Assembly: GCA_902784615.1 (NCBI GenBank) | Contig: CACZVN010000012.1 | Coordinates: forward strand, 26,867-90,866 | Length of the DNA: 64,000 nt | Source: an uncultured Prevotellaceae bacterium | GTDB lineage: Bacteria; Bacteroidota; Bacteroidia; Bacteroidales; Bacteroidaceae | Direction of reading: 5' to 3' | Shown: positions 13,568-63,680 of the stretch, in pieces | Position numbering within the stretch: position 1 is the first letter of the stretch | How the letters are laid out: every line of letters starts with the position of its first letter | The notes under the pieces: model-generated | What the model saw: the letters and a program-made list of their open reading frames with translations, nothing else | The model's database searches: none | Told to the model about the DNA's origin: nothing | Program-made: the position numbers and the translations under genes

Positions 13568-14336
13568 ATGGTACGACCGCTTATGGGCGGCACTTATCTT
13601 CTTCACCCGTCTGCCTTTCTGGCGTATCTACCAGCCACCCAAGGTGGCTTATCAGGGTGTCGTAGAATTCTGGCCGTTGGCAGGTTGGCTCACGGCAGGT
13701 GTCATGGCTGGTGTGCTCTATGGTGCTTCGATGGTTTTCTCATACGAAATAGCCGTTGTGCTGGCCATCGTCAGTCGATTACTATTGACGGGAGCATTGC
13801 ATGAAGACGGGTTAGCCGACTTCTTCGATGGCTTTGGAGGCGGTGGACGAGACCGTCAGCGCATCCTCGCTATCATGAAGGATTCGCACATCGGCACCTA
13901 CGGTGTGCTGGCACTCATCGTCTATTTTGCATTGCTTTTCTTTGCCCTCCATTCCCTGGCACCTGCTGACGCCGCACTTGCTATCCTCGCCGTTGACCCA
14001 TACGCCAAGATGGTGAGTGCCCAAGTGATACAGATGATGCCGTATGCCCGCACGGAAGAGACGGCCAAGAACAAAACCGTCTATCGTAAGTTCTCTGCTG
14101 CTGCAGGTATAGGTCTTGCCGTACAAGGTCTGCTACCCATCGGCCTCTACCTCTGGTGGATGCAGGGGCGAATAGAATGGGGTACGCTTATTTTCCTGCC
14201 TTGCCTGACAATGTATTTCCTCTACCTTTTTATATGGAGAAGGCTACGCGGCTACACGGGCGACTGTTGTGGCGCCCTTTTCCTGCTCACAGAGTTGACA
14301 GCCTATCTTATTATTGCTATTCCAGCAGTTCCTTAA
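13542..14336 (+). CDS. cobS: Adenosylcobinamide-GDP ribazoletransferase (cobalamin synthase)
   Basis: Integral membrane enzyme that joins AdoCbi-GDP and alpha-ribazole (phosphate), the last assembly step. 264 residues, several hydrophobic helices. Motifs: FFTRLPFW near residue 22, FWPLAGWLTAGVMAG and the metal-binding EDGLADFFDGFGGG near residue 87. It overlaps cobT by 26 bp. Its stop overlaps the 3' end of the convergent LytTR gene by about 20 bp. No cobC phosphatase follows. Confidence 0.94.
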   Translation: MEISLNTSKWYDRLWAALIFFTRLPFWRIYQPPKVAYQGVVEFWPLAGWLTAGVMAGVLYGASMVFSYEIAVVLAIVSRLLLTGALHEDGLADFFDGFGGGGRDRQRILAIMKDSHIGTYGVLALIVYFALLFFALHSLAPADAALAILAVDPYAKMVSAQVIQMMPYARTEETAKNKTVYRKFSAAAGIGLAVQGLLPIGLYLWWMQGRIEWGTLIFLPCLTMYFLYLFIWRRLRGYTGDCCGALFLLTELTAYLIIAIPAVP

Positions 14337-15243
14337 GTTTACTGATATTGCTGCGCGAAACAGGGATGGCATCGTGGCTGTGACGCATCACGAGTTGCAT
14401 GGCGCGAGAATTGGAGGAGATTTGTTCCACCTGAGCGAGATTGACCATAAAGGCACGATGGCAACGCACAATCATGGGATAGGCCTGTAGTTCGTCTTCC
14501 ATCTGTTTCATCGTGGCACGAAGCATATGGGTATGAACCTCATTGTTCTCTTGCAAGGCAAGCGCTCGGCTTTGCCGCTTTGCTTTGCAAAGAACCTTGA
14601 CATAGTTGCCTACGGCTTCTATATATAATAGGTGAGATATCTCGAGGGTCACATGTTCATTGGTGGTTCCCTCGAGTGTTATCTGTGAATCCTGATAGGT
14701 ACTCCCTGATAGAAGGCCGTCAGTCGCTTGTTGTGGGACTCCTGTGGTAGAACTCTGCAATTTCTTCAGCTGCTCGTTAAGTAGTCTGGTTTCCTCCAGT
14801 TCAGCAGCCAGATAACGGCTACGGTACTTGAATCGCCAGTAGAGTCCGATGGCGAAGGAGAGGAAAGCGATAATCACCAGCGTCTCCAGATAGTTTGTCA
14901 ACGACAGTTTATTACCCTCTACCAGATCGCTCATCGCGAAGTGACGATAGAGGCAGATGAGCAGCGATACCAACGGCGTGTTGATGCATTGGAAACGGAG
15001 ATTACGGCTGATGATATAGCTGACGCCACGATCGTAGGAACGGGGCATGCGGACAATGTATCGCAGAATGAGTTCCGTCAGGAAACAACTGAACAGTCCC
15101 AATGCAAATATCGCCAGCAGATGAACATAGGCCTGCCACTGCCATACTTCGAGTCCGAAGGGCTTGAAAATGGCTATCGCCAGCACCATGAAGGTGGTGC
15201 TGATGAAACGCGTGTTGATGGTTTCTTTGTGACCTTTGTTCAT
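14317..15243 (-). CDS. Membrane-anchored LytTR-family transcriptional regulator
   Basis: About 308 residues. The N-terminal half has four hydrophobic segments (for example FISTTFMVLAIAIFKPFG, LLAIFALGLFSCFLTELIL and TLVIIAFLSFAIGLYWRF). A coiled stretch of EETRLLNEQLKKLQ type leads to a C-terminal LytTR DNA-binding domain (ISHLLYIEAVGNYVKV, THMLRATMKQMEDEL, IVRCHRAFMVNL). There is no receiver domain, so the signal probably comes through the membrane part. I chose the ATG at 15243 over 15315 because the longer start overlaps the upstream operator region. About 12 residues (CKAKRQSRALAL) after YVKVL derive from a dispersed GCGGCAAAGCCGAGCG repeat (14563-14580). Divergent from the LiaF-like gene, with ~20-bp-periodic repeats between them. 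Confidence 0.88.
   Translation of the reverse strand: MNKGHKETINTRFISTTFMVLAIAIFKPFGLEVWQWQAYVHLLAIFALGLFSCFLTELILRYIVRMPRSYDRGVSYIISRNLRFQCINTPLVSLLICLYRHFAMSDLVEGNKLSLTNYLETLVIIAFLSFAIGLYWRFKYRSRYLAAELEETRLLNEQLKKLQSSTTGVPQQATDGLLSGSTYQDSQITLEGTTNEHVTLEISHLLYIEAVGNYVKVLCKAKRQSRALALQENNEVHTHMLRATMKQMEDELQAYPMIVRCHRAFMVNLAQVEQISSNSRAMQLVMRHSHDAIPVSRSNISKLKELLE
14563..14580. repeat. Dispersed repeat AAGCGGCAAAGCCGAGCG, copy inside the LytTR gene
   Basis: The reverse complement at 14563-14580 matches 18 of 18 bases with 36299-36316, which is intergenic upstream of the HU-like gene. Here it is in frame and lengthens a loop of the LytTR domain. Confidence 0.7.
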
Positions 15244-15305
15244 ACAGTTGGCAAAGGTAAGAAATATAATTAAGAATGAAGGATTAAGAATGAAGAAAAT
15301 GCTTC

Positions 15306-15385
15306 CGCTCGTCACTTTTCGCCCAATTCATCCCACATTTCAGCCCGTTTATCACTAAACTACGCAGAATATCCCAGAAATTTGG
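15306..15385. promoter_or_regulatory. Four ~20-bp-spaced TTCRTCMC repeats upstream of the LiaF-like gene (putative LytTR operator)
   Basis: CTCGTCAC (15308-15315), TTCATCCC (15327-15334), TTATCAC (15349-15355) and ATATCCC (15369-15375) are spaced 19-21 bp, about two helical turns. They lead into an AATTTGG (-33-like) sequence at 15379-15385. The block lies between the divergent LytTR and LiaF-like genes. Related elements occur at 18475, 56212, 61252 and 63650. Confidence 0.6.
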
Positions 15386-15404
15386 AGGGATAGTTGATAC
15401 GTCA

Positions 15405-15412
15405 TAACTTTG
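15405..15412 (+). promoter_or_regulatory. -7 promoter element TAACTTTG for the LiaF-like gene
   Basis: TAACTTTGCACC sits about 20 bp after the AATTTGG at 15379-15385 and 53 bp before the ATG at 15465, a standard Bacteroidales promoter geometry. Confidence 0.7.
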
Positions 15413-15464
15413 CACCGTCAAACAGTAAAACAGTAAAAAAGGAAATAATTTAAAAGGTAAAGTT

Positions 15465-16025
15465 ATGAAACTAAGAACGATTATTGGAATAGTTTTCATT
15501 GTAGCCAGTTTAACAAAGTTGGCAACAATCTGGGGAATCATCCAGTGGAGTTGGTTTACAAATGTATCTCAGGAGCCGTGGGTAACCTATTTCTGCATCT
15601 GTCTGCTGATATATGTAGGCGTGAGCCTTATTATCGACAGTTATCGCCGCGACCCTGACCAGTGGTTGCAGCGTCCGCTGCCCATTGGTGAAGATGGTAA
15701 GCGCATCTGCTGCAGTGCTCACTATGGCGGTGATGAGTATATCTATCGTGGGGAGGTTTTTCACGGAGCCCGTCTCGATGCTTTCTGTGGAGGTATCCGA
15801 ATGGACTTGCGTGATGCCACCATCACGGAAGATGAGGAGATTGAAATCCATACCTTCTGTGGTGGTATAGAACTCATGGTGCCTCAGACGGTGAATGTCG
15901 TTGTCAAGAGCCGTAGTTTCATTGGTGGTGTAGGCAACCATGCAACGCGAATCATAGGAAAGGATGCCCCCTGCCTCCACATCGTTGCCAACAATTTCTT
16001 GGGTGGTGTGGATATAAAAAGCTAA
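15465..16025 (+). CDS. LiaF-like membrane protein
   Basis: 186 residues with two N-terminal membrane helices (about 5-25 and 40-58), followed by a soluble beta-rich domain with repeated glycine turns (AFCGGIRMDL, TFCGGIELMV, SFIGGVG, NFLGGVDI). This fits the C-terminal domain of LiaF/cell-wall-active-antibiotic-response proteins. In Bacteroidales such proteins are often next to LytTR regulators, as here; the partner lies divergently. A role in sensing envelope stress is an inference from the family. The outer-membrane protein gene follows 73 bp downstream, probably co-transcribed. Confidence 0.75.
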   Translation: MKLRTIIGIVFIVASLTKLATIWGIIQWSWFTNVSQEPWVTYFCICLLIYVGVSLIIDSYRRDPDQWLQRPLPIGEDGKRICCSAHYGGDEYIYRGEVFHGARLDAFCGGIRMDLRDATITEDEEIEIHTFCGGIELMVPQTVNVVVKSRSFIGGVGNHATRIIGKDAPCLHIVANNFLGGVDIKS

Positions 16026-16098
16026 AATTTCTGCAACTATCTGTAATTTTCCGACGTCCAATACGACAAATAGGGTAAAAAAGTAAATTAGTAAATAG

Positions 16099-18471
16099 AT
16101 GAAAAAGATTGTTTTTAGGTTAACAGCCCTGATGGCTTTTATGATGATGACACTAACAAGTTCCGCTAAGACACAAGACTGGGGTGGACGAGTCATCGAT
16201 GAGAAGGGTGAACCAATGCCCTTTGTAAATGTTGTTTTGCTGTCGCTGCCAGATTCTACCTTCGTGCAGGGTGGCATGACTGATGAGCAGGGTATGTTTA
16301 AGATTGTAACGGATGTCAATGATGGTCTCTTCAAGGTGACCAGTGTGGGTTATCAGACCTTATATATAAAGGCCGGACAGGACCTGACCATCCAGATGAA
16401 GGAAGACACCCAACTGTTGCAGGAGGTCGTGGTGAAAGGTCAGCTGCCTAAGACGCATGTCAAGGGCGATGCCATGCGTACCACCGTTGCTGGAACCATT
16501 CTGGAAAAGGCTGGTACCATCAGCGACGCACTCTCAAAGATCCCCTCGCTCGAGGCTGAGGGCGAAGGTGGCATTAAGGTGCTGGGCCGTGGCGAGGCAG
16601 AGATCTACATCAATGGTCGCAAACTGCAGGACGTCAGCGAGTTGGGACGTATCAACTCCGATCAGATCCTGCATGTAGATGTAGTTCAGAATCCGGGTGC
16701 CCGCTATGCTGCATCGACCAAAGCCGTGGTTCGCATTACACTGAAAAAGGCACAGGGTGAGGGCATCAGTTTCCAGGACAAGGCTCAGGGCATGTATCAG
16801 TATGGCTGGTCGGCAAACAACCTCCTCGACGTGAATTATCGTACGGGTGGACTCGACCTCACAGCAACCTTCTGGGCCGGCACTTATGGTCACGGCAAGA
16901 GTCTGCAGGAAGATGATATGTACTATTTCGTAGGCAATGACGAAATCTTTGGTCATTCCGAGCAGGAGACCAGGCATAAGTGGAAGGGCCTGATGCCGCA
17001 GCTGCAGATTAACTACATGATTAACGAGAATCACAGCTTGGGTGCATTCTACAAGTACGACTATCATCCCAAGGGCGAAATTACCAGCCAGTTTAATACC
17101 GATGAGTATGGGAACAGCATCTTCACAGAGCGTTCCGAGAGCGAGGTATGGCAGGACGAGAAGTTCAAGAAGCACATCTTCAATGCCTATTATAATGGTA
17201 AGGTGGGCAATCTGGGCATCGACCTGAACATCGACGGACTCTTCGATGATACCGAGACGCCAGGAAACACTCGGGAACTGGCTTGGGCCGACGGTGCGAA
17301 GACTGGTGATTACACTGTACGTAACATCGAGAGCAATACCAAGAGTGCCAACAACTTCTGGGCCTCAAAGCTCATCTTCAGCTATCCGCTGTTGAAGGGT
17401 AACCTCTCAGTGGGAGGCGAATATTCGTACAACCATCGTACCGATGCCTACTCTTTCGAGGCTTCCGAGGCAGTACCTGTGACCACTACCGACACCGAGA
17501 TCAACGAGAAGTCGGCAGCCGGATTCGTGGAGTACGGACGCCAGTTTGGAAAAGTATTTGTTCAGGCTGGTCTGCGCTATGAGCACCTGAAGAACGACTA
17601 CTATAACTTCGGCGTGCGCGATGACGAGGTGTGTCGCGACTATGGCGACTGGTTCCCAACCGCAACCATCTCTGCTCCAATTGGTAAGGTACAGCTGTCG
17701 CTCTCGTATCGCCAGGACATCCAGCGCCCTGCATACGGCAATCTGACGAGTTCTACGATCTATTTGAATCGTTATGCTTATCAGAGTGGTAACCCTTACC
17801 TGAAGCCGATGTACACCAACAGTGTCGTACTGAACGCAGCCTACAAGTGGATGGGTATCAGCATCGATTACAGCCTGGTGAAGGATGCAACGACGATGTC
17901 GTCAGAGCCATATCCCGGTGCCGACGATCCGCTGATCTGTCTGGTGCGCCCCATCAACACGAAGGATAATTATAACCAGATGAGCTTCAATCCATACGCC
18001 AGTCCTACTATTGGCTGCTGGCACCCCACATGGTTTGTCTATCTGCTCTTCCAGAACTACAAGGCACCTACAGCTGCTGGTACCACCATCACACTCGATC
18101 GCCCTTACCTGCACTTGGGTTGGGATAACACCATCGAGTTGCTAAAGGGCTGGCGTATCAACGCTGGTGCACGTTTCAGTCCTAAGGGCGATGTCGGCAA
18201 CTTCCGTCTGCTGAAGGCTCAGGGACGCCTCGATCTGGGTATTCAACGCGACATCGACCTGCGCCGTATGGGTTCACTCACTCTCGACCTGCGTTGCAAC
18301 GATGTATTCAACAGCGACGAGACCAAGGCTACCCTGTATGGTCCACGCGAGTTGACCGTGTTTAATCCTACGCGTCGCACCTTTATTCTCAACCTCACCT
18401 GGAAGTTCAATGAGGCTCGCTCGAAGTACCGTGGCTCTGGTGCCGGTGAGAAGCAGAAAGCCCGTATGTAG
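16099..18471 (+). CDS. Outer-membrane beta-barrel protein with carboxypeptidase-regulatory-like domain
   Basis: 790 residues. Signal peptide (MKKIVFRLTALMAFMMMTLTSSA), CarboxypepD_reg-like domain (GRVIDEKGEPMPFVNVVLLS) at about 28-110, a plug-like segment (TISDALSKIPSLEAEGEGGI, LGRGEAEIYINGRK), then a long barrel of the OMP_b-brl_3 type. The TonB box is not obvious and the plug is shorter than in SusC. It follows the LiaF-like gene. A partial paralogue begins at 63743 with a very similar N-terminus. The transported substrate cannot be told; these proteins are sometimes induced with LytTR systems. Confidence 0.85.
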   Translation: MKKIVFRLTALMAFMMMTLTSSAKTQDWGGRVIDEKGEPMPFVNVVLLSLPDSTFVQGGMTDEQGMFKIVTDVNDGLFKVTSVGYQTLYIKAGQDLTIQMKEDTQLLQEVVVKGQLPKTHVKGDAMRTTVAGTILEKAGTISDALSKIPSLEAEGEGGIKVLGRGEAEIYINGRKLQDVSELGRINSDQILHVDVVQNPGARYAASTKAVVRITLKKAQGEGISFQDKAQGMYQYGWSANNLLDVNYRTGGLDLTATFWAGTYGHGKSLQEDDMYYFVGNDEIFGHSEQETRHKWKGLMPQLQINYMINENHSLGAFYKYDYHPKGEITSQFNTDEYGNSIFTERSESEVWQDEKFKKHIFNAYYNGKVGNLGIDLNIDGLFDDTETPGNTRELAWADGAKTGDYTVRNIESNTKSANNFWASKLIFSYPLLKGNLSVGGEYSYNHRTDAYSFEASEAVPVTTTDTEINEKSAAGFVEYGRQFGKVFVQAGLRYEHLKNDYYNFGVRDDEVCRDYGDWFPTATISAPIGKVQLSLSYRQDIQRPAYGNLTSSTIYLNRYAYQSGNPYLKPMYTNSVVLNAAYKWMGISIDYSLVKDATTMSSEPYPGADDPLICLVRPINTKDNYNQMSFNPYASPTIGCWHPTWFVYLLFQNYKAPTAAGTTITLDRPYLHLGWDNTIELLKGWRINAGARFSPKGDVGNFRLLKAQGRLDLGIQRDIDLRRMGSLTLDLRCNDVFNSDETKATLYGPRELTVFNPTRRTFILNLTWKFNEARSKYRGSGAGEKQKARM

Positions 18472-18474
18472 TGT

Positions 18475-18543
18475 CATTCGTCACAGAATAGTACATAATA
18501 AATCCCGTAAATTTGTGTAAATGAAAGAGAAATCGTATATTTG
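18475..18543 (+). promoter_or_regulatory. CATTCGTCACAGAAT element and promoter of the DUF418 gene
   Basis: CATTCGTCACAGAAT at 18475-18489 is followed by ATCCC at 18502, an AATTTGTG near 18510 (-33-like) and TATATTTG (-7) at 18536-18543. Same arrangement as at 56212 and 61252. Confidence 0.65.
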
Positions 18544-18563
18544 CAGACGAAAACTAGCAAAAT

Positions 18564-19691
18564 ATGTACAAGACCCGTTCTCTCCCCAACACACGCATTG
18601 ACGTGGCCGATGCCCTGCGAGGAATCGCTGTAGCAGGTATCATCTTGTATCACTCCGTGGAGCACTTCAACATCTTCACGCAAGAGACCATCATCCACGC
18701 ATTGCCTTCTGACCAGACAGTAGCCGACGTCCTCGCCTGGCTACTGTCTGGCAAGATGTATGGTATCTTCGCCATGCTCTTCGGACTGAGTTTCTTTATT
18801 ATGAACGATAACCAGCAGCAGAAGGGCAAATGCTTCTCTGGTCGCTTCGCTTGGCGCATGTGTCTGCTCTTTATGTTTGGTATCATCAATGTGGCCTTCT
18901 ACGATGGCGATATCCTGATGCTCTATGCCTGCTATGGCCTGCTGCTCATCCCCATCAGTTATCTGCCGTCGAAGGCGGTCTGGTGTATCATCGGCCTGCT
19001 GGCCATCCAGCCCGTAGAGCTGTTCTGCCTATTGACAGACTATGAGATCGACCATACCCGTTTCTACGAACTCTCAGGGATTATCAACAGCGCACACGAG
19101 CATGGTACGTTCTGGGAGAATACCCTCACCAATCTGCGCTACGGATTTGAGGTGAACTTCCGTTTCAACGTCTTTAGCGGACGTCTGACACAGTTGCTCT
19201 GCCTCTTTATCCTTGGCATGCAGTTAGGACGGCAGCGAATGTTCTATAATGAGGGGCGAAACCTGCAGTACTGGCATAGCATACTCGTCACTTCGGTCCC
19301 CAGCATCATTTTGCTGAGTTTTGCAGATTTCGGCGAGTTGGAAGGCTGGCTCAGGCCTATCTGCAACCTCATCATCCTCCTGATGATTGTCTCGGCTGTG
19401 GTCTCGGCGTGGTATGCCTTCGAGGGTGTGCGCCGCGTGCTCCATCATCTGTGCATCTTTGGCCGCATGAGCCTTACCAACTATCTGTTGCAGTCCGTCA
19501 TCGGCTGTGCCATCTTCTGTGGCTACGGTCTGGCCTGCTATTACAAACTGGGCATCACCTACGCCGTGATGGTAGGCGTAGGCATGGTTATTGCCCAATA
19601 TTGCTTCGCCCGTTTCTGGTTTGCCAGCCATCAGCGTGGTCCGCTGGAAGGCTTATGGCGAAAACTCACTTGGATCGGATCGCATAATTGA
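18564..19691 (+). CDS. DUF418/YeiB-family membrane protein
   Basis: 375 residues with about eight membrane segments. It opens with IDVADALRGIAVAGIILYHSVEHF, the acyltransferase-3/YeiB-like start, and ends with the DUF418 pattern (FGRMSLTNYLLQSVIGCAIF, GPLEGLWRKLTW). Its function is not established for the family; a membrane transport or acyl-transfer role has been guessed. It stands alone, with its own promoter carrying the CATTCGTCAC element. Confidence 0.85.
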   Translation: MYKTRSLPNTRIDVADALRGIAVAGIILYHSVEHFNIFTQETIIHALPSDQTVADVLAWLLSGKMYGIFAMLFGLSFFIMNDNQQQKGKCFSGRFAWRMCLLFMFGIINVAFYDGDILMLYACYGLLLIPISYLPSKAVWCIIGLLAIQPVELFCLLTDYEIDHTRFYELSGIINSAHEHGTFWENTLTNLRYGFEVNFRFNVFSGRLTQLLCLFILGMQLGRQRMFYNEGRNLQYWHSILVTSVPSIILLSFADFGELEGWLRPICNLIILLMIVSAVVSAWYAFEGVRRVLHHLCIFGRMSLTNYLLQSVIGCAIFCGYGLACYYKLGITYAVMVGVGMVIAQYCFARFWFASHQRGPLEGLWRKLTWIGSHN

Positions 19692-46692: not shown

Positions 46693-48435
46693 ATGATTAT
46701 GAAGACAATATATCAAGCAATCTGCGCAGGTCTGATCGTTTGCGGTACGCTTACTTCTTGCAACGATTTCATAGACGTTACACCTAAAGGTGTCATCAGC
46801 GAGGACCTGGCTATGAGCCAGCCTGAAGAGATGGTGACAGCAGCCTACGCCAAACTCGGTGACGACTGGTACACCTATCCGTTTAATCTCTGGCCATATG
46901 GTGATGTCTCTTCCGACGATGCCATGAAGGGCGGTTCGGGAACAACCGATACCAACTACCACCCGGTAGAGGTTTGGTCCACTCTGACAGCTTCTACTCC
47001 CGACCATATGGACGAGCTCTGGTATCATCTCTACTGCTCAGTTAGCCGCTGCAACCGTGCATTGGTATCTCTGGCAAATGATGATACAATGGACGCATCG
47101 GTAAAGGCCATCCGCGAAGGTGAGGTTCGTTTCCTCCGTGCCCACTTCTACTTCAAGCTCGTCCAGCTTTGGAATCAGGTTCCCTGGATCGACGAAGAGG
47201 TTTATAAAGTACACTCTGAGGAGCAGACCCGTAACGATGAGTTCACCCACGAGCAGCTGATGGAGAAGATCGTTGCCGACTTCAAGGCTGCATACGATGT
47301 GCTGCCTGCACATCAGGCCGATGGCGGTCGCGCCAATAAGATCGCTGCCGCAGCCTATCTGGCTAAGTGCTATCTGACCATGGCCTGGGGCAATGGTTAC
47401 GAGGATAACACTGGTGTGAGCCACATCAATCAGGACTACATGAAGAAGGTCATTGAATATACCGAGGTAGTAAAGAACTCTGATTATGGCTACTTAGAGG
47501 ACTATGGTGACATCTTCCTGCCTGAGTACAAGAACTCCAAGGAGAGCGTATTTGCTGTACAGCATAGTGACTATCAGGATGACAACACCCTCTACGGTCG
47601 CGCCAACTGGAGCAACATGCTGAATGGTTGCTGGCAGATGTGGTCGTGCGGATGGGACTTCCACAAGCCCACCCAGAACCTGGTAAATGCTTTCAAGACC
47701 AAAGACGGTCTGCCCATGTTCGACGACTTCAACAAGGAGATTGCCTATCCTGTCAATGGTATGCCAACATCTCAGAAATGGGATCCGCGTCTCTTCCACA
47801 CAGTAGGTATGCCTACCTTCCCATACAAATATGAGCAGGAGTACACGATGACCACTGACAACTCTCGTACTCCGAACACCTACGGTTACTATGCTTCTCT
47901 GAAGGAAGTGCCACAGCGCTCAAAGGGTGAGACATTCGACAACCCCTGGCAGGCCTTCGCCATGAATGACTATGTGTTCCGCTATACCGACGTGATGCTG
48001 ATGCGTGCCGAGGCTCTGATTGAGACAGGTAGTCTGACTGAGGCCCAAGAGATTATCAACGCTGTTCGCCAGCGTGCCAAGAACTCTGTTGACAAGCATA
48101 TCAGCTACGCAGCCGACCAGTGCGAGATTGCACTTTATCCTGATTCTTACTTCAAGGATAAGGAGACTGCCCGTAAGTGCCTGCAGTGGGAGCGCCGTCT
48201 GGAACTCGCCATGGAGAACAGCCGTTACTTCGACCTTCGCCGTTGGGGTATCGCTTCACAGACACTGAACAAGTTCTTCGAGTCAGAGCAGAACAGTGTC
48301 TATGAGGGACAGACCTATGCACGGTACTATAAGGATGCCCACTATACACCGGGCAAGAACGAGTACTTCCCTCTGCCCTATATCCAGCTCTACTACGTAC
48401 CTGGTCTCTACACTCAGAACAAGGGATATAATTAA
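46693..48435 (+). CDS. susD: SusD-like surface glycan-binding lipoprotein
   Basis: 580 residues; lipobox LTSCND, SusD N-terminal TPR region with VTPKGVISEDLAMSQPEEM and EVRFLRAHFYFKLVQLWNQV, and the C-terminal WERRLELAMENSRYFDLRRWG signature. Caps the SusC pore. A GTAAAATAGTAAAAC repeat separates it from susC. Confidence 0.95.
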   Translation: MIMKTIYQAICAGLIVCGTLTSCNDFIDVTPKGVISEDLAMSQPEEMVTAAYAKLGDDWYTYPFNLWPYGDVSSDDAMKGGSGTTDTNYHPVEVWSTLTASTPDHMDELWYHLYCSVSRCNRALVSLANDDTMDASVKAIREGEVRFLRAHFYFKLVQLWNQVPWIDEEVYKVHSEEQTRNDEFTHEQLMEKIVADFKAAYDVLPAHQADGGRANKIAAAAYLAKCYLTMAWGNGYEDNTGVSHINQDYMKKVIEYTEVVKNSDYGYLEDYGDIFLPEYKNSKESVFAVQHSDYQDDNTLYGRANWSNMLNGCWQMWSCGWDFHKPTQNLVNAFKTKDGLPMFDDFNKEIAYPVNGMPTSQKWDPRLFHTVGMPTFPYKYEQEYTMTTDNSRTPNTYGYYASLKEVPQRSKGETFDNPWQAFAMNDYVFRYTDVMLMRAEALIETGSLTEAQEIINAVRQRAKNSVDKHISYAADQCEIALYPDSYFKDKETARKCLQWERRLELAMENSRYFDLRRWGIASQTLNKFFESEQNSVYEGQTYARYYKDAHYTPGKNEYFPLPYIQLYYVPGLYTQNKGYN

Positions 48436-55010: not shown

Positions 55011-55502
55011 ATGGAAACAAAAGAATTAGAGAAAGAATTCCTGAGCATGATCGAGGAGCAGAAACGTACCATCTACAAGGTGTGTTACATGTATGCCAAT
55101 GATCAAGACGACCTGAACGACCTGTTTCAGGAAACGGTGCTAAACCTCTGGAAGAGTTTTCCTCGCTATCGTGGCGACAGTTCTCTCAACACTTGGGTAT
55201 ATCGCATTGCCATGAACACCTGTATCTCGTTCTTGCGTCACTCTAACACTCGCCCGCAGACCGTTCCTATGACGGCTCAGATAGCAGGCAGCCTGGAGAC
55301 CGACGAGGAGACAGAAGTAAGGCTCAAGTATCTCTACAACCTCATCAACCAACTGGGGAAATTGGAACGCGCGCTGATCCTCCTTTGGCTTGAAGAGCGT
55401 AGCTATCAGGAAATGGCCGATATACTCGGCATCTCTAAGGCCAATGTAGCCGTTAAACTCAATCGTATTCGAGAGAAATTAAAGCAAATGTCTAACAGTT
55501 AA
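55011..55502 (+). CDS. ECF-type RNA polymerase sigma factor
   Basis: 163 residues. Region 2 (DQDDLNDLFQETVLNLWKSFPRYRG) and region 4 (ERALILLWLEERSYQEMADILG, SKANVAVKLNRIREKLKQ) are clear. It is followed 11 bp later by a membrane protein likely to be its partner. No classical anti-sigma zinc motif is present in that partner. Confidence 0.93.
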   Translation: METKELEKEFLSMIEEQKRTIYKVCYMYANDQDDLNDLFQETVLNLWKSFPRYRGDSSLNTWVYRIAMNTCISFLRHSNTRPQTVPMTAQIAGSLETDEETEVRLKYLYNLINQLGKLERALILLWLEERSYQEMADILGISKANVAVKLNRIREKLKQMSNS

Positions 55503-55513
55503 ATTGTAAGATT

Positions 55514-56122
55514 ATGGAACTTGACGATTTGAAGACCAGTTGGAACGCTCTTGATAAGCGTCTGGCAGAAACAGAAATAGTGAATATGCGTATGGTTAAG
55601 GAGATGGTGTCTCAGAAGACCAAGTCGGCTTTTAACGGCATCGTGGGGCACAACCTCTACAACTTCGTAGTAAGCCTTGTTATCATAGGTTTTGTTTTCC
55701 CATACGTCTGGATACATACCCCCATCTCTACCACATCGTTTGTGATTGTTGAGGCTATTATGCTCATTGGATTGATTCCAGTTGTAAGAAAACTCTTGCT
55801 GTTGTCTAAGTTCGATGTCGATGGTAAAAACGTAAGCGAACTCAACCGCTTGGTATTGAAATACAAGAAGGCTTGTCACGACGATCCTTATTGGACTATC
55901 ACAGGTGTAACTCTTGGCTTTGTTGGCTTCTACATCTCTGAGCTTGGTTTCAATACAGCTATCGACTATGGATTCAGCAACCGCGTATGGGTAGTAGTTG
56001 GCCTCACCTTGCTCACCTTCGCTCTAGCTTTTGTTATCGGATTGTGGCAGCGTCGCCGTCACGCCCAGCAGATGCAGGAGATAGAGCGCGGACTGGAAGA
56101 GCTAAAGGAATTTGAAGAATAA
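55514..56122 (+). CDS. Four-helix membrane protein, putative anti-sigma partner
   Basis: 202 residues: N-terminal cytoplasmic helix (MELDDLKTSWNALDKRLAET, typical of Bacteroidetes ECF-adjacent proteins), then four membrane segments, and a C-terminal coiled coil (RRHAQQMQEIERGLEELKEF). The regulatory role is inferred from its place behind the sigma gene. A strong hairpin terminator follows. Confidence 0.7.
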   Translation: MELDDLKTSWNALDKRLAETEIVNMRMVKEMVSQKTKSAFNGIVGHNLYNFVVSLVIIGFVFPYVWIHTPISTTSFVIVEAIMLIGLIPVVRKLLLLSKFDVDGKNVSELNRLVLKYKKACHDDPYWTITGVTLGFVGFYISELGFNTAIDYGFSNRVWVVVGLTLLTFALAFVIGLWQRRRHAQQMQEIERGLEELKEFEE

Positions 56123-56211: not shown

Positions 56212-56278
56212 CATTCGTCACAGAATCGTGCAGATTATCCCAAAAATTTGGTAGATTGCACAACTAAGTATAATTTTG
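56212..56278 (+). promoter_or_regulatory. CATTCGTCACAGAAT element and promoter of the PNPOx-like gene
   Basis: CATTCGTCACAGAAT at 56212-56226, ATCCC 20 bp on, AATTTGG (-33-like) at 56245-56251 and TAATTTTG (-7) at 56271-56278. Confidence 0.68.
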
Positions 56279-56308: not shown

Positions 56309-57043
56309 ATGGATAAAGAAACAAAATTCTGTCAGAGTTGCGGCATGCCGCTGACTGACGAGGTTCTCGGCACCAATGCCGACGGTAGCAAGAACGAAGA
56401 TTATTGCATGTACTGCTACAAGGATGGAAAATTCTTGCAGGATTGCACGATGGAAGAGATGATCGAACATTGTGCCCAATTCGTGGGCGCAGTAAACGAG
56501 GGGTTGGAGAAACCCATCACCAAAGAGGAATATATCGGTATGATGAAAACATATTTCCCCCAGTTGAAGCGTTGGCGCAAAACGTTGAATGTTAGTAACG
56601 ATGAAGTCATGAATGTCAACCCCGCTTTGGCAGGCATTAAAGAACTCATTGCACAGATGGCCGACTCGCTGCCCATTGCCTATATCTCATCCGTTGATCA
56701 AGAAGGTTTTCCTTGGTCCAAAGCTATGTTGAAACCACGCAAGCGTGAGGGTATCAAGACCTTCTACTTTACAACCAATACATTCTCAATACGTGTGGCT
56801 CAATACAAGGCTAATCCCAAGGCCAGCATCTACTTCTGCGATGTAAAAGGGTTTAAAGGTATGATGCTTCGTGGTACAATGGAGGTGCTGACAGATGCCA
56901 AGAGCAAGGAGATGATTTGGCGCGAGGGTGACGAGCAATACTATCCTGAGGGCGTAACCGATCCTAACTATTGCGTCTTGAAGTTCACCGCCACCGACGG
57001 CCGTTTCTATAGCGACTTCTATCCACGTAGTTTTGTGATTTAG
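56309..57043 (+). CDS. Zinc-ribbon + pyridoxamine 5'-phosphate oxidase-family protein
   Basis: 244 residues. The N-terminal 'putative zinc ribbon' domain (FCQSCGMPLTDEVLG, EDYCMYCYKDGKF) is followed by a helical linker. From about residue 120 a FMN-binding split-barrel domain follows (IAYISSVDQEGFPWSKAMLK, TFYFTTNTFSIRVAQYK, IYFCDVKGFKGMMLRGTMEV). I chose ATG 56309 (MDKETKF). Likely a general flavin-dependent oxidoreductase or stress protein; the substrate is unknown. First gene of a four-gene run. Confidence 0.85.
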   Translation: MDKETKFCQSCGMPLTDEVLGTNADGSKNEDYCMYCYKDGKFLQDCTMEEMIEHCAQFVGAVNEGLEKPITKEEYIGMMKTYFPQLKRWRKTLNVSNDEVMNVNPALAGIKELIAQMADSLPIAYISSVDQEGFPWSKAMLKPRKREGIKTFYFTTNTFSIRVAQYKANPKASIYFCDVKGFKGMMLRGTMEVLTDAKSKEMIWREGDEQYYPEGVTDPNYCVLKFTATDGRFYSDFYPRSFVI

Positions 57044-57051
57044 TAAAAGAT

Positions 57052-58229: not shown

Positions 58230-58757
58230 ATGAAAAAATCGATTATCATATATGGTAGCCAGTATGGCACAACTAAGCGGTATGCCGATCGCTTTTCAGA
58301 AATAACAGGGATAGAAACCGTTAGTTATCAGGAGTCTAAGAATATTGACAGGTATGACCGAATTATCTTCATGGGTGCTCTCTATGCAGGTAGTGTCCTA
58401 GGGTTAAAGAAGACGATCAGCAAGATGTCCCCCAAGCAAGAGCTGGTTATCGTCACGGTTGGCTTGGTTGACCCGATTGATCCAGAGAATATTGACTACA
58501 TTCGACATTCCATCAAAGAGAGGATTCCTGCAGATCTCTACGACGAAACGAGAATATTCCACCTCCGTGGAGCCATTGACTACAGCCAACTTAGCCTGAA
58601 GCATCGGATGATGATGGCGGTTATTCACTCGAAATTATCAAAGATGCCAGAAGAGAAGCTTAACGCCGAGGCAAAGACCATTCTTGCCACATATGGCAAA
58701 AAGGAAGACTTCGTCGATTTCAAATCATTGGAGAAACTTGGAAGTGTGATACAATGA
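58230..58757 (+). CDS. Flavodoxin-domain protein (HemG-like)
   Basis: 175 residues. FMN loop SQYGTTKRYADRF near the N-terminus, then MGALYAGSVLGLKKTISKM and LRGAIDYSQLSLKHRMMMAV, as in flavodoxin-type protoporphyrinogen oxidase-like proteins. I chose ATG 58230 (MKKSIIIYGSQYG). A -7 TATCTTTG lies at 58194-58201, so it may have its own promoter. Confidence 0.85.
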   Translation: MKKSIIIYGSQYGTTKRYADRFSEITGIETVSYQESKNIDRYDRIIFMGALYAGSVLGLKKTISKMSPKQELVIVTVGLVDPIDPENIDYIRHSIKERIPADLYDETRIFHLRGAIDYSQLSLKHRMMMAVIHSKLSKMPEEKLNAEAKTILATYGKKEDFVDFKSLEKLGSVIQ

Positions 58758-58821
58758 ATTGGAATATACGCTTGGATAATATAGGATCAGAAATGAAGAT
58801 GTCAAATGATAATAAAGTAAT

Positions 58822-60642
58822 ATGAAAAGAACGATATTATATTTCTTTTTATTCGCGCTGTTGTTGGTCAACTGTGGCAACCAGCCTCAGACACTCAGTG
58901 AATTGAAATCAGAGTACGTGACTATCGACGATAGTATTCGCGTACATTATAAAATATGGAATAAGTCGGCTGGCACTGATGCCAAGACCATCTGCTTTGT
59001 TCACGGCTTCGGCTGTGATATGAACACTTGGGAGAAGCAGTTCGAGGCATTCCGTGATGAGAAAAATCAGCAACTCGTATTCATCGACCTACCAGGCTGC
59101 GGACAAAGCGACAAGCCCCATGTGGACTACACGCTCGACTTCTTTGCCCATGCCATTGATGAAGTGCTGAATTCAAATGGTATTAAGGATGCCGTCTTCG
59201 TAGGTCATAGTCTGGGAACGCCTGTATGCCGTCAGACGCTGTTGACGACAGCTCACAAAGGCGCTTTGGTCGATGTTGATGGTGTCTATTGTTTCTACGA
59301 TGGCACGGAAACACCTGAATATGTAGAGGCAGTCAACCAGTTCGGCCATGCTTTTGATGGCGAGAACTGTCGCGAGGTTATCACAGGTTTTGTATCCTCG
59401 TTGGCAGGCAAGGATACACCTCAGGAGATCAACGACTATGCCATGTCTGTGATGCCCGAAACGCCACAGTATGTAGCTTCGAACACCATGCAGCATTTGA
59501 TTGAAAAGAAGTGGTGGAACAATCGCCAGATCTCTTTGCCTGTGATGGTTATCTGTACGCAGAACAGTGGTCTTGATCTTGACAACAAGCAGAAGATGGA
59601 GCGTTTGTATCCCAATCTCGACTATACCGAACTGACCACTTGCGGACACTTCATCCACATGGAACTGCCTGATAAGTTCAACGAGAAGCTGAAGGCTTTC
59701 ATTGCTTCGCAAATTCCTAACAAACAAGCAGACGATGCCCATATTTTGTTTGAGATTCGCCCTGAGGTGAACTATGTTACCCATCTCTATACGCTTGCAG
59801 GGCTAGGATTTTCTGATGAGGAATACGTTACGAGATATGGCAATACGCTCCCCAAGGCTGCTGTCGATACCCTCCAGAAATACAAGGATTATCTGACGTT
59901 CGGACAAAGTGAAGGCGGTATGTTGGCAGGTTCATTCTTCTTTATGGTCTCAGCAGATACATTTGCCAATGCTGATAGCCTTCAGGAAGTGATGGACAAA
60001 TACCAGGAGATGGCAAAGAGCTATAACTCACCTGCCGACATCATGAACATAGCCAATGCCATCGCCAAAGTGTATGTCGATAACTACGACAACTATCTCA
60101 AGACTGTCTATCCTCAAGCGAAGAAAGACATGGAGAAGCGCCAAAATCTGCTAAGTCAGCACATGCAGAACCATTCTTTCGTCAAGGATTGGGAGCGCGT
60201 TACTGGTTATCAATGGCATCGTGGTGATTATCATTGGCTATTGTATCGTGCTGGCGCAAAAGGCCCGTCGTACAATAACCTGAACGAGAACACCAATACC
60301 GTCTATTACAATCAGTCACTGGATTATCAGCTCTCGATGTTCAGCCATGAGTTTGGCATTTTCCTGATGCAAGACAGCATTGATCCTATCGTAGAGGAGA
60401 TGAAGGAGTACACTCGTTCTCTAAACTCGAAGAAAGACCTGACATTCGTACCCTGGAGTGCTTTCGAAAGTCTAGCTTGTTGGTATAATTGCAAGATAGC
60501 AGGCAAAGAAACCGAGGATTATCGTAACTTTAGCGAAGCTGACGTGAAGACTTTCTGCCAGATTTATGACCGTCTCTCTGCAACGGGCATCACAGGCCCC
60601 GCAGAGCTGTATCGCAAAGGAATTATGGAATATTTGAAATAA
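58822..60642 (+). CDS. Lipoprotein: alpha/beta hydrolase fused to an unknown C-terminal domain
   Basis: 606 residues. Lipobox LLVNCGN. The N-terminal half is an alpha/beta hydrolase (FVHGFGCDMNTWEKQF, VFVGHSLGTPVCRQ with nucleophile Ser, TTCGHFIHMELPDKF with His). From about residue 305 an unfamiliar region begins: FEIRPEVNYVTHLYTLAGLG, MLAGSFFFMVSADTFANADS and SMFSHEFGIFLMQ, which may be a DUF4932-like, metal-binding domain (HE). The two halves are separated only by a short linker. The role of the second half is unknown. Confidence 0.8.
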   Translation: MKRTILYFFLFALLLVNCGNQPQTLSELKSEYVTIDDSIRVHYKIWNKSAGTDAKTICFVHGFGCDMNTWEKQFEAFRDEKNQQLVFIDLPGCGQSDKPHVDYTLDFFAHAIDEVLNSNGIKDAVFVGHSLGTPVCRQTLLTTAHKGALVDVDGVYCFYDGTETPEYVEAVNQFGHAFDGENCREVITGFVSSLAGKDTPQEINDYAMSVMPETPQYVASNTMQHLIEKKWWNNRQISLPVMVICTQNSGLDLDNKQKMERLYPNLDYTELTTCGHFIHMELPDKFNEKLKAFIASQIPNKQADDAHILFEIRPEVNYVTHLYTLAGLGFSDEEYVTRYGNTLPKAAVDTLQKYKDYLTFGQSEGGMLAGSFFFMVSADTFANADSLQEVMDKYQEMAKSYNSPADIMNIANAIAKVYVDNYDNYLKTVYPQAKKDMEKRQNLLSQHMQNHSFVKDWERVTGYQWHRGDYHWLLYRAGAKGPSYNNLNENTNTVYYNQSLDYQLSMFSHEFGIFLMQDSIDPIVEEMKEYTRSLNSKKDLTFVPWSAFESLACWYNCKIAGKETEDYRNFSEADVKTFCQIYDRLSATGITGPAELYRKGIMEYLK

Positions 60643-60668
60643 TTGGCTTTACCATTATCTGACAAAGA

Positions 60669-61199
60669 ATGAACATACTGATTATATCCGGAAGCCCTCG
60701 TAAGGGTGGCAATACAGAATTGTTGGCTGAAGCTTTTGCCAAAGGAGCTTCAGCGCAGCATCATGTAGAGATTGTCTTTGTACGTGATTATAAGGTAAAT
60801 CCGTGTTTGGGATGTAACGCTTGTTTCAAAACGAACGGCATCTGTGCTCAGAAGGATGACATGGCCCTCATCTATGAGAAGATGAACCAGGCAGATATGC
60901 TCGTCATAGCCTCGCCAGTCTATTTCTATGGCATTAGTGCTCAATTGAAGGCTGTCATCGACAGGTTCCACAATCCCATCCGAGACACCTTTCACATAAA
61001 AAAGATGGCATTGTTACTCGTTGGTGCTGCCACACTGCCAGAATTATTTGATGCCATTCTAGCGGAATACAACCTCTGCTTGAAGTTCTTTGATATAGAG
61101 GACGCTGGTAAAGTGCTCGTTAAAGGAGCCAAAGACAAGGGTGACATCAATAATACTAATGCACTGAATGAGGCATACACATTGGGATTATCAATATAA
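60669..61199 (+). CDS. NADPH-dependent FMN reductase (flavodoxin fold)
   Basis: 176 residues: MNILIISGSPRKGGNTELLA (FMN phosphate loop), CLGCNACFKTNGICAQKDDM (CxxCxxC-like Cys cluster) and VIASPVYFYGISAQLKAVIDR. Of the multimeric flavodoxin/Isf type. Starts 26 bp after the hydrolase. Confidence 0.92.
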   Translation: MNILIISGSPRKGGNTELLAEAFAKGASAQHHVEIVFVRDYKVNPCLGCNACFKTNGICAQKDDMALIYEKMNQADMLVIASPVYFYGISAQLKAVIDRFHNPIRDTFHIKKMALLLVGAATLPELFDAILAEYNLCLKFFDIEDAGKVLVKGAKDKGDINNTNALNEAYTLGLSI

Positions 61200-61251
61200 A
61201 ACATTGGTGAACATACCGAAAAGTGGAGCCTGTGCGTTTCCATTCCTAAGC

Positions 61252-61318
61252 CATTCGTCACAGAATTACGCAGAATATCCCCAAAATTTGGTAGAATCCA
61301 AAACTAAATGTATCTTTG
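61252..61318 (+). promoter_or_regulatory. CATTCGTCACAGAAT element and promoter of the CAT-like gene
   Basis: CATTCGTCACAGAAT at 61252-61266, ATCCC 20 bp on, AATTTGG at 61285-61291 and TATCTTTG (-7) at 61311-61318. Closely matches the promoter at 56212. Confidence 0.72.
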
Positions 61319-61367
61319 CGGTCGAAAAGAGGCGGCCTGTTGGTAAGCAGTCTAATTTGATGAGACG

Positions 61368-61985
61368 ATGAAAAAAGAAATAAACCCTCAAGAGAGTAAC
61401 AGGGCAGAAGCATTCAGTATGTGCATGTCGTCGCCTATGCCAATGGTGACGTTGGTGAAAACATTTGATGTCACCCGCTTGGTAAAGGTCAGCAAGAAGA
61501 GTGGCGTAAAGTTTAACATGTTGATGTGCTGGTGCATAGGCAGGGCGGCCAAGGATATTAAGGAGTTCTACCTACTGCCAATAGATGGCAAACTGTTCCA
61601 ATTTGACAGGCTTGCCATCAATGTCATCGTGGAGAACTGTAAGAATGATATCAGCTCGTGTGATATCCCTTATTCGGATGACTTGCAACAGTTCAATAGT
61701 GATTATCAGAAGCTGACTGCTCAGGCTGCCCGCGAATGTAAGAGCTTTTTCCTTGAAGGCCACATAATTATTGGCACATCCACCCTTGTGCAGACAGAGA
61801 TTGACTGCATTGTAAACCAATATAGCGCCAAATTCAATAATCCGTTCTTGGCATGGGCCAGATATCGTAAGGGATGGTTTAAAACCACCCTGCCAGTATC
61901 GCTCCAGTTCCATCATGTCCAGATGGATGGTGGTCAGGCAGCCAAGTTCCTTCAGCGCTTGCAGGATGAAATCAATGCCTTATGA
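61368..61985 (+). CDS. Chloramphenicol acetyltransferase-like (CatA-type) acyltransferase
   Basis: 205 residues. Catalytic motif HHVQMDGGQAAKFLQRLQDE (HHxxxDG) near the C-terminus; CAT-like trimer fold (KFNMLMCWCIGRAAKD, FQFDRLAINVIVEN). Known CAT family members acylate chloramphenicol or other thiol/hydroxyl substrates; resistance cannot be claimed from sequence alone. Own promoter with the CATTCGTCAC element. Confidence 0.83.
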   Translation: MKKEINPQESNRAEAFSMCMSSPMPMVTLVKTFDVTRLVKVSKKSGVKFNMLMCWCIGRAAKDIKEFYLLPIDGKLFQFDRLAINVIVENCKNDISSCDIPYSDDLQQFNSDYQKLTAQAARECKSFFLEGHIIIGTSTLVQTEIDCIVNQYSAKFNNPFLAWARYRKGWFKTTLPVSLQFHHVQMDGGQAAKFLQRLQDEINAL

Positions 61986-62003
61986 TAAAATGTCAAACAT
62001 ATC

Positions 62004-62570
62004 ATGGAGAAGAATACGATGATACATGAAACGAATAGATTGATCCTCCGACCGTGGAAAGAGAGCGATGCGGAGACCTTATATAAATATGCAAGTCATC
62101 CCGATGTGGGGCCAATTGCGGGATGGGCGGTTCATACAAGTGTAGAGAATAGCCGTGAAATAATCCAGAGTGTTCTATCGGCACCGGAAACCTATGCTGT
62201 AGTATTAAAAGAATCCGGTGAGCCTGTTGGCAGCATCGGACTTATGCTCGGCAAAGCAAGCAATATCGGCATTCCTGATACGGAGGGTGAAATAGGCTAC
62301 TGGATAGGGGTTCCATATTGGGGACAAGGACTGATACCTGAGGCGGTCAGAGAAATCATGCGATATGGCTTTGAAGTATTGAATCTTGAAAGAATCTGGT
62401 GCGGTTATTTTGATGGAAATATAAAGTCAAAGCGCGTTCAGGAAAAGTGCGGATTTCAATACCATCATACTGCCTATAATGTATCTTGTGCCATTGAAGG
62501 GGTAATGCGAACAGAACACGTGACCTGCCTTTCCAGGGAAGAATGGCTGGGCATGTGTGTTGGATTTTAA
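62004..62570 (+). CDS. GNAT acetyltransferase (RimJ/RimL-type)
   Basis: 188 residues: [20 protein letters not shown], the acetyl-CoA loop [19 protein letters not shown] and [27 protein letters not shown]. Probably modifies a protein N-terminus or small amine. Follows the CAT-like gene by 18 bp. Confidence 0.92.
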
Positions 62571-62647
62571 TTGGCTGCAATGTATTTCATCCGTCATTCC
62601 TGCCTTTATAGCGTGGTGCTATTATCCAGATTTAAAGAATTATCGTC

Positions 62648-63079
62648 ATGGAAATATCAAATTGGTTTAAGGGTTTTGAGAAAGGTATAGCACGGCTCTC
62701 TCCAGAGGAGCGGTCTGCATTTTTCTCGGAATGCGGGAAAAACTGTGTAAATGGCGACACACTTTCTGTTTACAAGAAACTCTATGAGGATGCCAAAGGG
62801 AACATGGATGTGTTCTTTCAGATGGCTAATGATTTGCCAGGAGTAAAAGGTGAGGTTATTGAGAAAGGTCATGTTTATCGACTTATCTTCTTAAAATGCA
62901 CCTGTGAGTTGTGTAAAAAGGGATATGTCACTACGCCTTTGCTTTGTGAATGTTCACGCCAAAGTGTGATTTATTCGCTGCACAGTTTATGGAAAGACAA
63001 AAACTTCATCGTAACGCTTTGTCATTCCATCTTGGGTGGTGGGACAGATTGTGAAATGAGAATAGAGGTCGATAGATAA
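62648..63079 (+). CDS. Cysteine-rich protein of unknown function
   Basis: 143 residues: MEISNWFKGFEKGIARLSPE, SECGKNCVNGDTL and then the cluster FLKCTCELCKKGYVTTPLLC ECSRQSV. Eight cysteines suggest metal binding. Resembles small uncharacterised proteins of gut bacteria (possibly DUF6144-like), but I cannot assign it. The next gene begins immediately after its stop. Confidence 0.6.
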   Translation: MEISNWFKGFEKGIARLSPEERSAFFSECGKNCVNGDTLSVYKKLYEDAKGNMDVFFQMANDLPGVKGEVIEKGHVYRLIFLKCTCELCKKGYVTTPLLCECSRQSVIYSLHSLWKDKNFIVTLCHSILGGGTDCEMRIEVDR

Positions 63080-63646
63080 GTGAAGCGAATCCCCAACCGA
63101 TGGAGCAGTGAGAGCAGAGCCGAACTTGTTAGAGCTATGCCGAGTCGCGACAGAGGAATACTAACAGTCAATCTCCTGTCAATGTCGCGGATTGTGTTGT
63201 GTCTGCCTTTGCTTTTAGTGGATGTAATGACTTTGCCTTTTTGGGTACTTTACCTGATAGCAGGTACGACTGACATGCTTGACGGTTTTCTGGCAAGGCG
63301 ATGGGGCGTGGAGAGTAAGTTTGGGGCCAAATTGGATAGTTTGGCTGACTTTGTGTTTGTTTTGGCTGTTGGATATAAGTTGTTTCCGTGGCTGAAGCTA
63401 TCTGATGAGCTGTGGATGATGATAGGGCTTATCGCGCTGGTGAAAACAGTTAATGCTATCAGCTCGTATGTGGTAAAACATAAAATAGAATTCCTGCATA
63501 CCAAAGTCAACAAATTGACAGGCTTCTTGCTCTTTATCGGCATGATGATTGTCGGACAGTCATACTTCATCCCTGTTGCATGGGTGATTGCCTGCATCGC
63601 CCTCTTCGCAGCCATTCAGGAAGGACATATTATTCGCAGCAAATAA
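63080..63646 (+). CDS. CDP-alcohol phosphatidyltransferase
   Basis: 188 residues from GTG 63080 (an internal ATG is possible near 63137). The family signature DGFLARRWGVESKFGAKLDS (DGxxAR...G...D...D) is complete, and four to five hydrophobic segments follow. Makes a phospholipid head-group link, probably PgsA- or PssA-like. GTG start directly abuts the previous stop (TAAGTG). Confidence 0.9.
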   Translation: MKRIPNRWSSESRAELVRAMPSRDRGILTVNLLSMSRIVLCLPLLLVDVMTLPFWVLYLIAGTTDMLDGFLARRWGVESKFGAKLDSLADFVFVLAVGYKLFPWLKLSDELWMMIGLIALVKTVNAISSYVVKHKIEFLHTKVNKLTGFLLFIGMMIVGQSYFIPVAWVIACIALFAAIQEGHIIRSK

Positions 63647-63649
63647 TAC

Positions 63650-63680
63650 CATTCGTCACAGAATCGTACCATTCGTCACA
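63650..63680 (+). promoter_or_regulatory. Two 20-bp-spaced CATTCGTCACA repeats upstream of the second outer-membrane protein
   Basis: CATTCGTCACA (63650-63660) and a second CATTCGTCACA (63670-63680) are exact direct repeats 20 bp apart; the first continues as GAAT, the second as AATT. This is the clearest direct-repeat case of the window. Confidence 0.7.

Follow-up and report, generated by a model that had tools for sequence, protein, structure and literature searches.

An uncultured Prevotellaceae bacterium carries, in front of several of its operons, a repeated DNA element that we describe here as the predicted operator of a membrane-anchored LytTR regulator. The stretch analysed—hereafter the window—comprises 64,000 nucleotides of contig CACZVN010000012.1 (assembly GCA_902784615.1, positions 26,867 to 90,866), and the element is marked by a 15-mer, CATTCGTCACAGAAT, which occurs exactly at window positions 18475, 56212, 61252, and 63650. 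A LytTR regulon had been proposed for these sites in a preliminary description of the DNA; promoter placement, conservation across species, a match to the AlgR box, and the tracking of sites with this LytTR gene across genomes now support it. What the sequences show directly is the element itself, how well it is conserved, where it lies, and that it occurs together with the LytTR gene. Judged from them, the LytTR protein of the window (encoded at 14317-15243) very probably binds operators of two to four boxes at -33/-7 promoters and thereby most likely activates scattered target operons, which in rumen Prevotella comprise genes for surface proteins and for enzymes. The 15-mer would be the promoter-distal LytTR box of an operator directly upstream of ordinary Bacteroidota -33/-7 promoters, and the protein would bind boxes spaced by about two turns of the helix (20 bp). 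Predicted targets are the divergent genes for a LiaF-like and an outer-membrane protein (OMP), a DUF418 gene, a PNPOx operon, the CatA-like/GNAT genes, a second OMP gene and, elsewhere in the genome, an ABC-transporter operon.

A multibox element directly upstream of promoters

The four exact copies of the 15-mer are the only ones in the searched genome (2,737,969 bases in 53 contigs, 84% complete): all lie in the window, on the plus strand and upstream of genes on that strand, against 0 exact copies of the reversed control and about 1e-4 copies expected in 64 kb on both strands by our own arithmetic. Degenerate searches discriminate less. With up to three mismatches, six matches are found in the window (that at 46854 being a minus-strand match) versus 2.5 expected, a number that 3 of 100 shuffles reach and that is not striking; in the whole genome, the count of 76 versus 48 for the reversed control is uninformative. 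The word CATTYRTCACA occurs exactly 13 times in the genome versus four times for its control, one of the 13 (window 42790, minus strand) lying inside a long open reading frame (ORF), and CMATTYRTCMCW with one mismatch is near chance in the window (14 versus 9.3). Among relatives, the exact 15-mer is present at three places in 2 of 149 other genomes, before a GNAT gene, an ABC ATPase gene, and a PNPOx orthologue.

The 15-mer is the upstream half of a two-box element, in which CCRTTYRTCACA is followed 20 to 22 bp on by a degenerate second box, GCAGAATATCCCAGA. The element continues into a -33 TTTG and, 20 bp further, a -7 TAnnTTTG—the -33/-7 pair of Bacteroidota promoters. The second box, with its ATCCC core, is missing from the preliminary description; since it follows the 15-mer at spacings of 22, 20, and 20 bp (Table 1), the promoters at 18475, 56212, and 61252 are two-box sites, too. 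At 63650, the partner 15-mer at 63670 is identical in 13 of 15 bases and exactly 20 bp away, so that the true direct repeat reported there stands. The four weaker repeats reported at 15306-15385 with 19- to 21-bp spacing are likewise recovered, as box cores 19, 21, and 20 bp apart. The statement that every 15-mer precedes a -33 and a TAnnTTTG holds at 18475, 56212, and 61252; at 63650, the promoter match is poor.

Table 1. Regulator, predicted operators, and adjoining genes in the window
Feature	Position	Strand	Details
LytTR regulator	14317..15243	-	308 aa; N-terminal membrane domain, coiled-coil-like linker, C-terminal LytTR DNA-binding domain; Pfam LytTR 7e-16
Operator-promoter array of LiaF/OMP genes	15306..15412	+	Box cores 15311, 15330, 15351, 15371; -33 TTTG 15381-15384; -7 TAACTTTG 15405-15412
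LiaF-like protein	15465..16025	+	Pfam LiaF-like_C 2e-7; two hydrophobic N-terminal segments; adjoins LytTR in relatives; candidate regulator partner
Outer-membrane beta-barrel protein (OMP1)	16099..18471	+	OMP_b-brl_3, CarboxypepD_reg-like; Pfam 9e-63
Site before DUF418 gene	18475..18543	+	Box core 18480; second box 18502 (22 bp); -33 18512; -7 TATATTTG 18536; R1 E=2e-5
DUF418 membrane protein (predicted target)	18564..19691	+	Pfam 5.5e-27; orthologues of three relatives, 82-87% identical, behind strong sites
Site before PNPOx operon	56212..56278	+	Box core 56217; second box 56237 (20 bp); -33 56247; -7 TAATTTTG 56271; R1 E=9e-14
Zinc-ribbon and PNPOx-like protein (predicted target)	56309..57043	+	Probable start ATG 56309; Pfam; first-ORF match in 13 of 81 loci
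Site before CatA-like gene	61252..61318	+	Box core 61257; second box 61277 (20 bp); -33 61287; -7 TATCTTTG 61311; R1 E=1.4e-12
CatA-like O-acetyltransferase family 2 (predicted target)	61368..61985	+	NCBIfam NF040637 1e-100
GNAT gene	62004-62570	+	3' of CatA-like gene
Site before second outer-membrane gene	63650..63715	+	Near-identical boxes 63650, 63670; weak -33 TTGG 63683; weak -7 TATCTCTG 63708
Second outer-membrane protein, N-terminus (predicted target)	63743..64000	+	Cut by window end; 81% over 86 residues to L164 ORF behind site

Four copies that have 15 exact bases in common within about 45 kb might also be regarded as a dispersed repeat or as a recently duplicated promoter cassette without regulatory meaning. 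The sequence between and around the boxes differs, though, and sites of the same form precede non-homologous genes in many species; on this comparison, the explanation appears very improbable and was dropped.

Just 5' of the PNPOx site, positions 55011-56122 hold a sigma-70-family gene followed by the gene of a hydrophobic protein, which could be an anti-sigma factor. This neighbourhood and the fixed position of the element relative to -33 and -7 speak for the 15-mer as a component of a sigma-factor promoter, such as one recognised by the extracytoplasmic function (ECF) sigma factor encoded at 55011-55502. Yet a standard -33 TTTG/-7 TAnnTTTG pair already stands beside the boxes, the boxes number two to four per site and are spaced roughly by turns of the helix, and the box matches a proven LytTR site; the sigma-factor reading, which was dropped for these reasons, appears very improbable.

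Conservation, placement, and the predicted regulon

The divergent region between the LytTR gene and the LiaF/OMP genes was followed in a set of 150 genomes of the same genus (own included), 51 of which carry the LytTR gene at E<=1e-20. Thirty LytTR loci were examined, again with the own one; 24 could be delimited by a placed divergent LiaF or OMP start, six could not. In all 24, a GCAGAATATCCC-type second box stands before the LiaF/OMP promoter with its TTTG-like -33 and TAnnTTTG-like -7—a count that is a description and not a test, because the anchor words were chosen from the same sequences. Box 1 is present in 23 of these regions, i.e., in all that reach far enough upstream, and when these 23 are aligned, neither the box 1 TCAC nor the box 2 TCCC varies, and several promoter bases are likewise fixed. 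The LytTR gene is divergent from LiaF/OMP in the window and in 24 of the 30 loci, most of which have a LiaF-like gene nearby. The exceptions are one same-strand locus with the regulator first (L058), two with LiaF or OMP on the 3' side (L050, L053), two where no partner is seen beside the LytTR gene (L047, L056), and one with a partial OMP match only (L054).

In named genomes—among them uncultured Prevotella and Prevotellaceae, P. ruminicola KHT3, and Xylanibacter ruminicola—76 upstream regions from 80 loci were available after exclusion of four partial ones, and a regular expression anchored 50 of them. Several of these loci recur in the 150-genome set, either as such or as close kin, and hence are not independent of it. 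Three box cores before the anchor are seen in 31 of the 50 anchored regions, and box spacings peak at 19 (24 times) and 21 bp (25 times), with minorities at 18 (5) and 12 bp (6).

For the search beyond the divergent region, a sequence-only profile, R1, was built from 23 LytTR-divergent promoters, with no other target promoter in the training. Besides its training site, R1 finds four full-length sites in the own genome, where 150 of 1586 candidates were scored: the PNPOx site (9e-14), an ABC-transporter site outside the window (7e-13), the CAT-like site (1.4e-12), and the DUF418 site (2e-5). All other matches to E=0.01 begin at model positions 19-36, or in two cases at 12, and therefore rest mostly on the general promoter half. 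Of the targets named in the preliminary description, the PNPOx, CAT, and DUF418 promoters are thus re-found and the LiaF/OMP array is conserved; the 63650 site is absent from the R1 matches listed among the scored candidates. The ABC-transporter site (G000:C1:43347) is flanked by a GntR-like gene on one side and an ABC ATPase/permease operon on the other. This arrangement, with the site between the GntR-like and the ATPase genes, is common to the own genome and the relative G074 (L072, L068).

A set of 81 sites not adjoining a LytTR match was compiled from 80 R1 sites of relatives, taken from the best-scoring part of the listed matches without some at contig edges or already covered, and the own ABC-transporter site. 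An ORF of at least 100 aa starts within 130 bp at 57 of 78 usable sites versus 185 of 1560 random positions. The distance between box 1 and box 2 is 20 bp in 73 of 75 parsed sites, a spacing that the profile itself favours. The first ORF matches the window's PNPOx protein at 13 sites (ten of these over at least 90 residues at >80% identity), OMP1 at nine, the CAT-like protein at five (one over 36 residues), the window-type GNAT at four, DUF418 at three (82-87% identical), and LiaF at two. One of the OMP loci, L164, holds an apparent orthologue of the second OMP of the window. Further first ORFs encode an ABC ATPase (five sites, own included), an M13 peptidase (four), and sigma-70-family proteins (two). 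When 77 ORFs of at least 90 aa were scanned, 15 matched GNAT Acetyltransf_1 and 12 a zinc ribbon.

Within the window, the PNPOx gene heads a same-strand run to 61199 with isochorismatase-like, alpha/beta hydrolase, flavodoxin, hydrolase, and FMN-reductase genes, and OMP1 is likely cotranscribed with the LiaF-like gene. In relatives, sigma-70/ECF-family genes stand behind LytTR sites at L159, L178, and L297, hinting at a regulatory cascade. Some relatives show three to six sites clustered within 4-17 kb (G034:C32:30462-47573, G055:C5:76305-90590, and G131:C1:4342-8273), which suggests an ancestral regulon island.

The candidate regulator and its link to the sites

For the LytTR gene, ATG 15243 is the most likely start, rather than GTG 15315, as TACCTTTG lies just upstream of the former and all 36 aligned sequences have its Met. 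An AlphaFold model from these 36 sequences (pLDDT 71, pTM 0.48) places helices at residues 2-26, 36-63, 74-104, and 115-167 in front of the LytTR beta fold; hydropathy marks three of the four. At E<=0.001, the model has 13 PDB matches, each of them either a LytTR domain or the LytTR regulator ComE, and for the membrane half there is no convincing match among the 50 PDB matches listed, which from rank 14 on lie above E=0.08. Pfam matched neither a receiver domain—the N-terminus being modelled as helices—nor an MHYT sensor domain, and NCBIfam gave a weak BtsR match over the LytTR part only, far below cut-off. Named isolates with this LytTR gene are Prevotella ruminicola KHT3, Xylanibacter ruminicola Ga6B6, and Prevotella sp. 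MA2016.

Site presence tracks this LytTR gene. Because R1 was trained beside the gene, co-occurrence was additionally tested on non-adjacent sites only. Strong sites (E<=1e-9) are found in 44 of 51 genomes with and 12 of 99 without the gene (p 1.5e-19); strong sites not adjoining it, with a list complete to 2e-10, in 31 of 51 versus 12 of 99 (p 1.3e-9); and when only the 68 genomes with a completeness of at least 90% and a contamination of at most 5% are counted, the non-adjacent ratio is 15 of 22 versus 2 of 46 (p 4e-8)—p-values that ignore shared ancestry. The non-adjacent set includes a few LiaF promoters, placed on another contig or at a greater distance. The seven LytTR-carrying genomes without a strong site hold distant homologues of 31-34% identity (G015, G048, G080, G130) or partial matches (G040, G056, G109). 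Among the site-bearing genomes without a LytTR call, G119 retains a 44-residue LytTR fragment (91% identical), and at the expected place G081 shows an apparent LytTR 5' end (tblastn 1.5e-5, partly covering the promoter) and G129 four codons of one, seen by eye.

A wider sample of the order (198 genomes, i.e., the own and 197 others) was searched with stricter filters, which makes its site counts lower bounds. Sites at E<=1e-6 occur in at least 3 of 198 genomes: the own, G250, and G260. G250 carries the only other close LytTR orthologue of the sample (1.1e-140) and a clear array before its LiaF-like gene, while G260 has a four-box array, no close LytTR found, and eight codons resembling a LytTR start beside the site. 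Operator arrays hence persist where the LytTR gene seems cut to a few 5' codons (L292 in G260, L127 in G129, and L297 in G081), suggesting that the regulator was lost and orphan operators were left behind. At L127, the adjacent OMP reading frame looks broken.

Several observations weigh against the assignment of these sites to the window-type LytTR, beside the neglect of shared ancestry. In 9 of the 12 site-bearing genomes of the genus that lack the gene, no LytTR fragment or remnant is found—seven of the nine are 61-85% complete—and such sites may therefore serve another LytTR or be orphans. Two of these site-bearing genomes, G049 (7% contaminated) and G059, have a completeness score of 99% but no close LytTR; their LytTR genes match part of the query at 38% and 26% identity, respectively, so that both genomes speak against a strict one-to-one link. 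In five of the nine genomes (G059, G095, G105, G112, G121), the searched stretches beside the site gave no LytTR match. The remnants in G129 and G260 amount to four and eight codons seen by eye, G081 being the only one with a tblastn match. G079, whose only LytTR is 32% identical, has a site at 2.4e-10, and no site at 1e-6 is found in G167, where a distant homologue (5e-26) matches over the DNA-binding half. Box spacing is, as the minorities at 18 and 12 bp show, not uniform. Finally, the window LytTR has an insertion of about 10 residues in its DNA-binding domain (residues ~219-233), absent from the 35 aligned orthologues, which may alter binding, and the own genome encodes six LytTR genes in all.

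These points feed the explanation that one of the five other LytTR proteins uses the boxes as its operators and that the window LytTR is merely linked to them: a choice of regulators exists in the genome, the nine genomes bear strong sites with no orthologue or remnant, and G079 combines a strong site with a distant homologue only. On the other side stand the tracking of sites with the window-type gene, the frequency of arrays of at least three boxes in that gene's own divergent region, the order sample, where the one further genome that carries a close orthologue is among the two others with a site, and—as a weak point—the short stretches resembling LytTR 5' ends that three site-bearing genomes without the gene show where the gene would be expected. 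Taken together, we regard operators of another LytTR as unlikely and favour the window LytTR as the protein that binds them.

Recognition of the boxes by a LytTR domain is well grounded, as they are identical in sequence to CCGTTCGTC, the site of AlgR, and to the AlgR variants CCGTTTGTC and CCGTTCATC. We infer binding by the window LytTR, activation, and the roles of the LiaF-like protein and of envelope stress from such comparisons. Bound LytTR would probably activate transcription, which fits with boxes that end just upstream of -33 and cover neither -33 nor -7. The LiaF-like protein might be the membrane partner that holds LytTR inactive or relays an envelope signal; by analogy this is a tentative assignment, somewhat short of an even chance. 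Its LiaF-like_C domain is what we take to be the former DUF2154. A switch resembling the LytTR regulatory systems (LRS) is proposed because LRS repeats sit immediately upstream of -35, with positive autoregulation and inhibition by a membrane protein, and because the Bacteroides version pairs a transmembrane LytTR with a DUF2154 protein. DUF2154 is part of the Toastrack domain, according to the available part of one report (PMC11237479). Envelope damage as the signal and the label "envelope/redox stress" are guesses from the gene families. On balance, we lean toward a broader picture, in which a kinase-free membrane LytTR with a Toastrack (LiaF-like) partner would run a dispersed envelope/detoxification regulon at unlinked loci, with targets gained and lost from species to species and repeated loss of the regulator leaving orphan operators.

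Relation to known LytTR systems

The kind of system is known; its divergent layout, box, array, and multioperon regulon are apparently new, as we did not find them in the literature searched, which was mostly open-access and in part available as excerpts. For membrane-anchored LytTR proteins of Prevotella, we found no operator described in these sources, only LRS-like Bacteroides pairs, and no regulon of LytTR kind in P. ruminicola or in rumen Prevotella generally. A search for a LytTR binding motif in Bacteroidetes returned, in the portions available, only unrelated work, the accessible parts of PMC8895600 and PMC10269533 do not describe a window-type regulon, and among the matches listed for the 10-mer ATTCGTCACA no paper was on the LytTR-box subject by title.

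The window LytTR belongs to its family by sequence, by fold, and by direct-repeat pairs about two turns apart near a promoter. It has neither the receiver of AlgR-type regulators nor the MHYT domain of CoxC-like ones. With the LRS, as defined in the available text of Zou et al. 2018 (PMC6193735), it shares the pairing with a DUF2154 membrane protein and repeats just upstream of its own promoter. It departs from them in that regulator and membrane protein are not one operon with the regulator first but divergent.

The closest relatives are the LRS-like operons of Bacteroides thetaiotaomicron and B. ovatus, which, in the same portions of that paper, encode a LytTR with multiple transmembrane segments together with a DUF2154 membrane protein, are presumed to be autoregulated pairs, and carry direct repeats that immediately precede a promoter containing TATCTTTG. 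There, a single operon places the membrane protein (NfeD + DUF2154) first, and the repeats are TCCGGTATTCA/ACCGGAAATCA with 11 bp between them; the window system, by contrast, has divergent genes, a four-helix LytTR, a two-segment LiaF-like protein, and CCRTTYRTCACA boxes with a period of about 20 bp in up to four copies, serving a multioperon regulon. HdrRM/BrsRM of Streptococcus mutans likewise combine a LytTR with an inhibitory membrane protein (HdrM with DUF2154) and direct repeats just upstream of -35, and positive autoregulation was shown for HdrR. They differ in their boxes and in a soluble regulator in operon with its inhibitor, an inhibition that is only presumed for the LiaF-like protein of the window (PMC6193735).

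CoxC of Afipia carboxidovorans is, as far as the available text goes (PMC11347149), also a single-component membrane-bound LytTR with three direct repeats 18-21 bp apart. Yet it bears a seven-helix MHYT gas sensor, and its repeats TTNNNGCN overlap -35 and serve to repress the cox genes. AlgR of Pseudomonas aeruginosa has an experimentally known site whose word is the same as that of the window boxes, variants included, but it is a response regulator paired with AlgZ, and its sites lie at varied, often distant positions, as given in the accessible part of PMC4064291. Against this background, the present analysis yields an exact predicted operator together with its putative regulator, a candidate partner of the latter, and a list of targets, all of them testable in named isolates. 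If true, it would widen the LytTR regulatory systems of Bacteroidota from self-regulated pairs to a multioperon regulon and raises the question of how a membrane-bound protein reaches scattered promoters.

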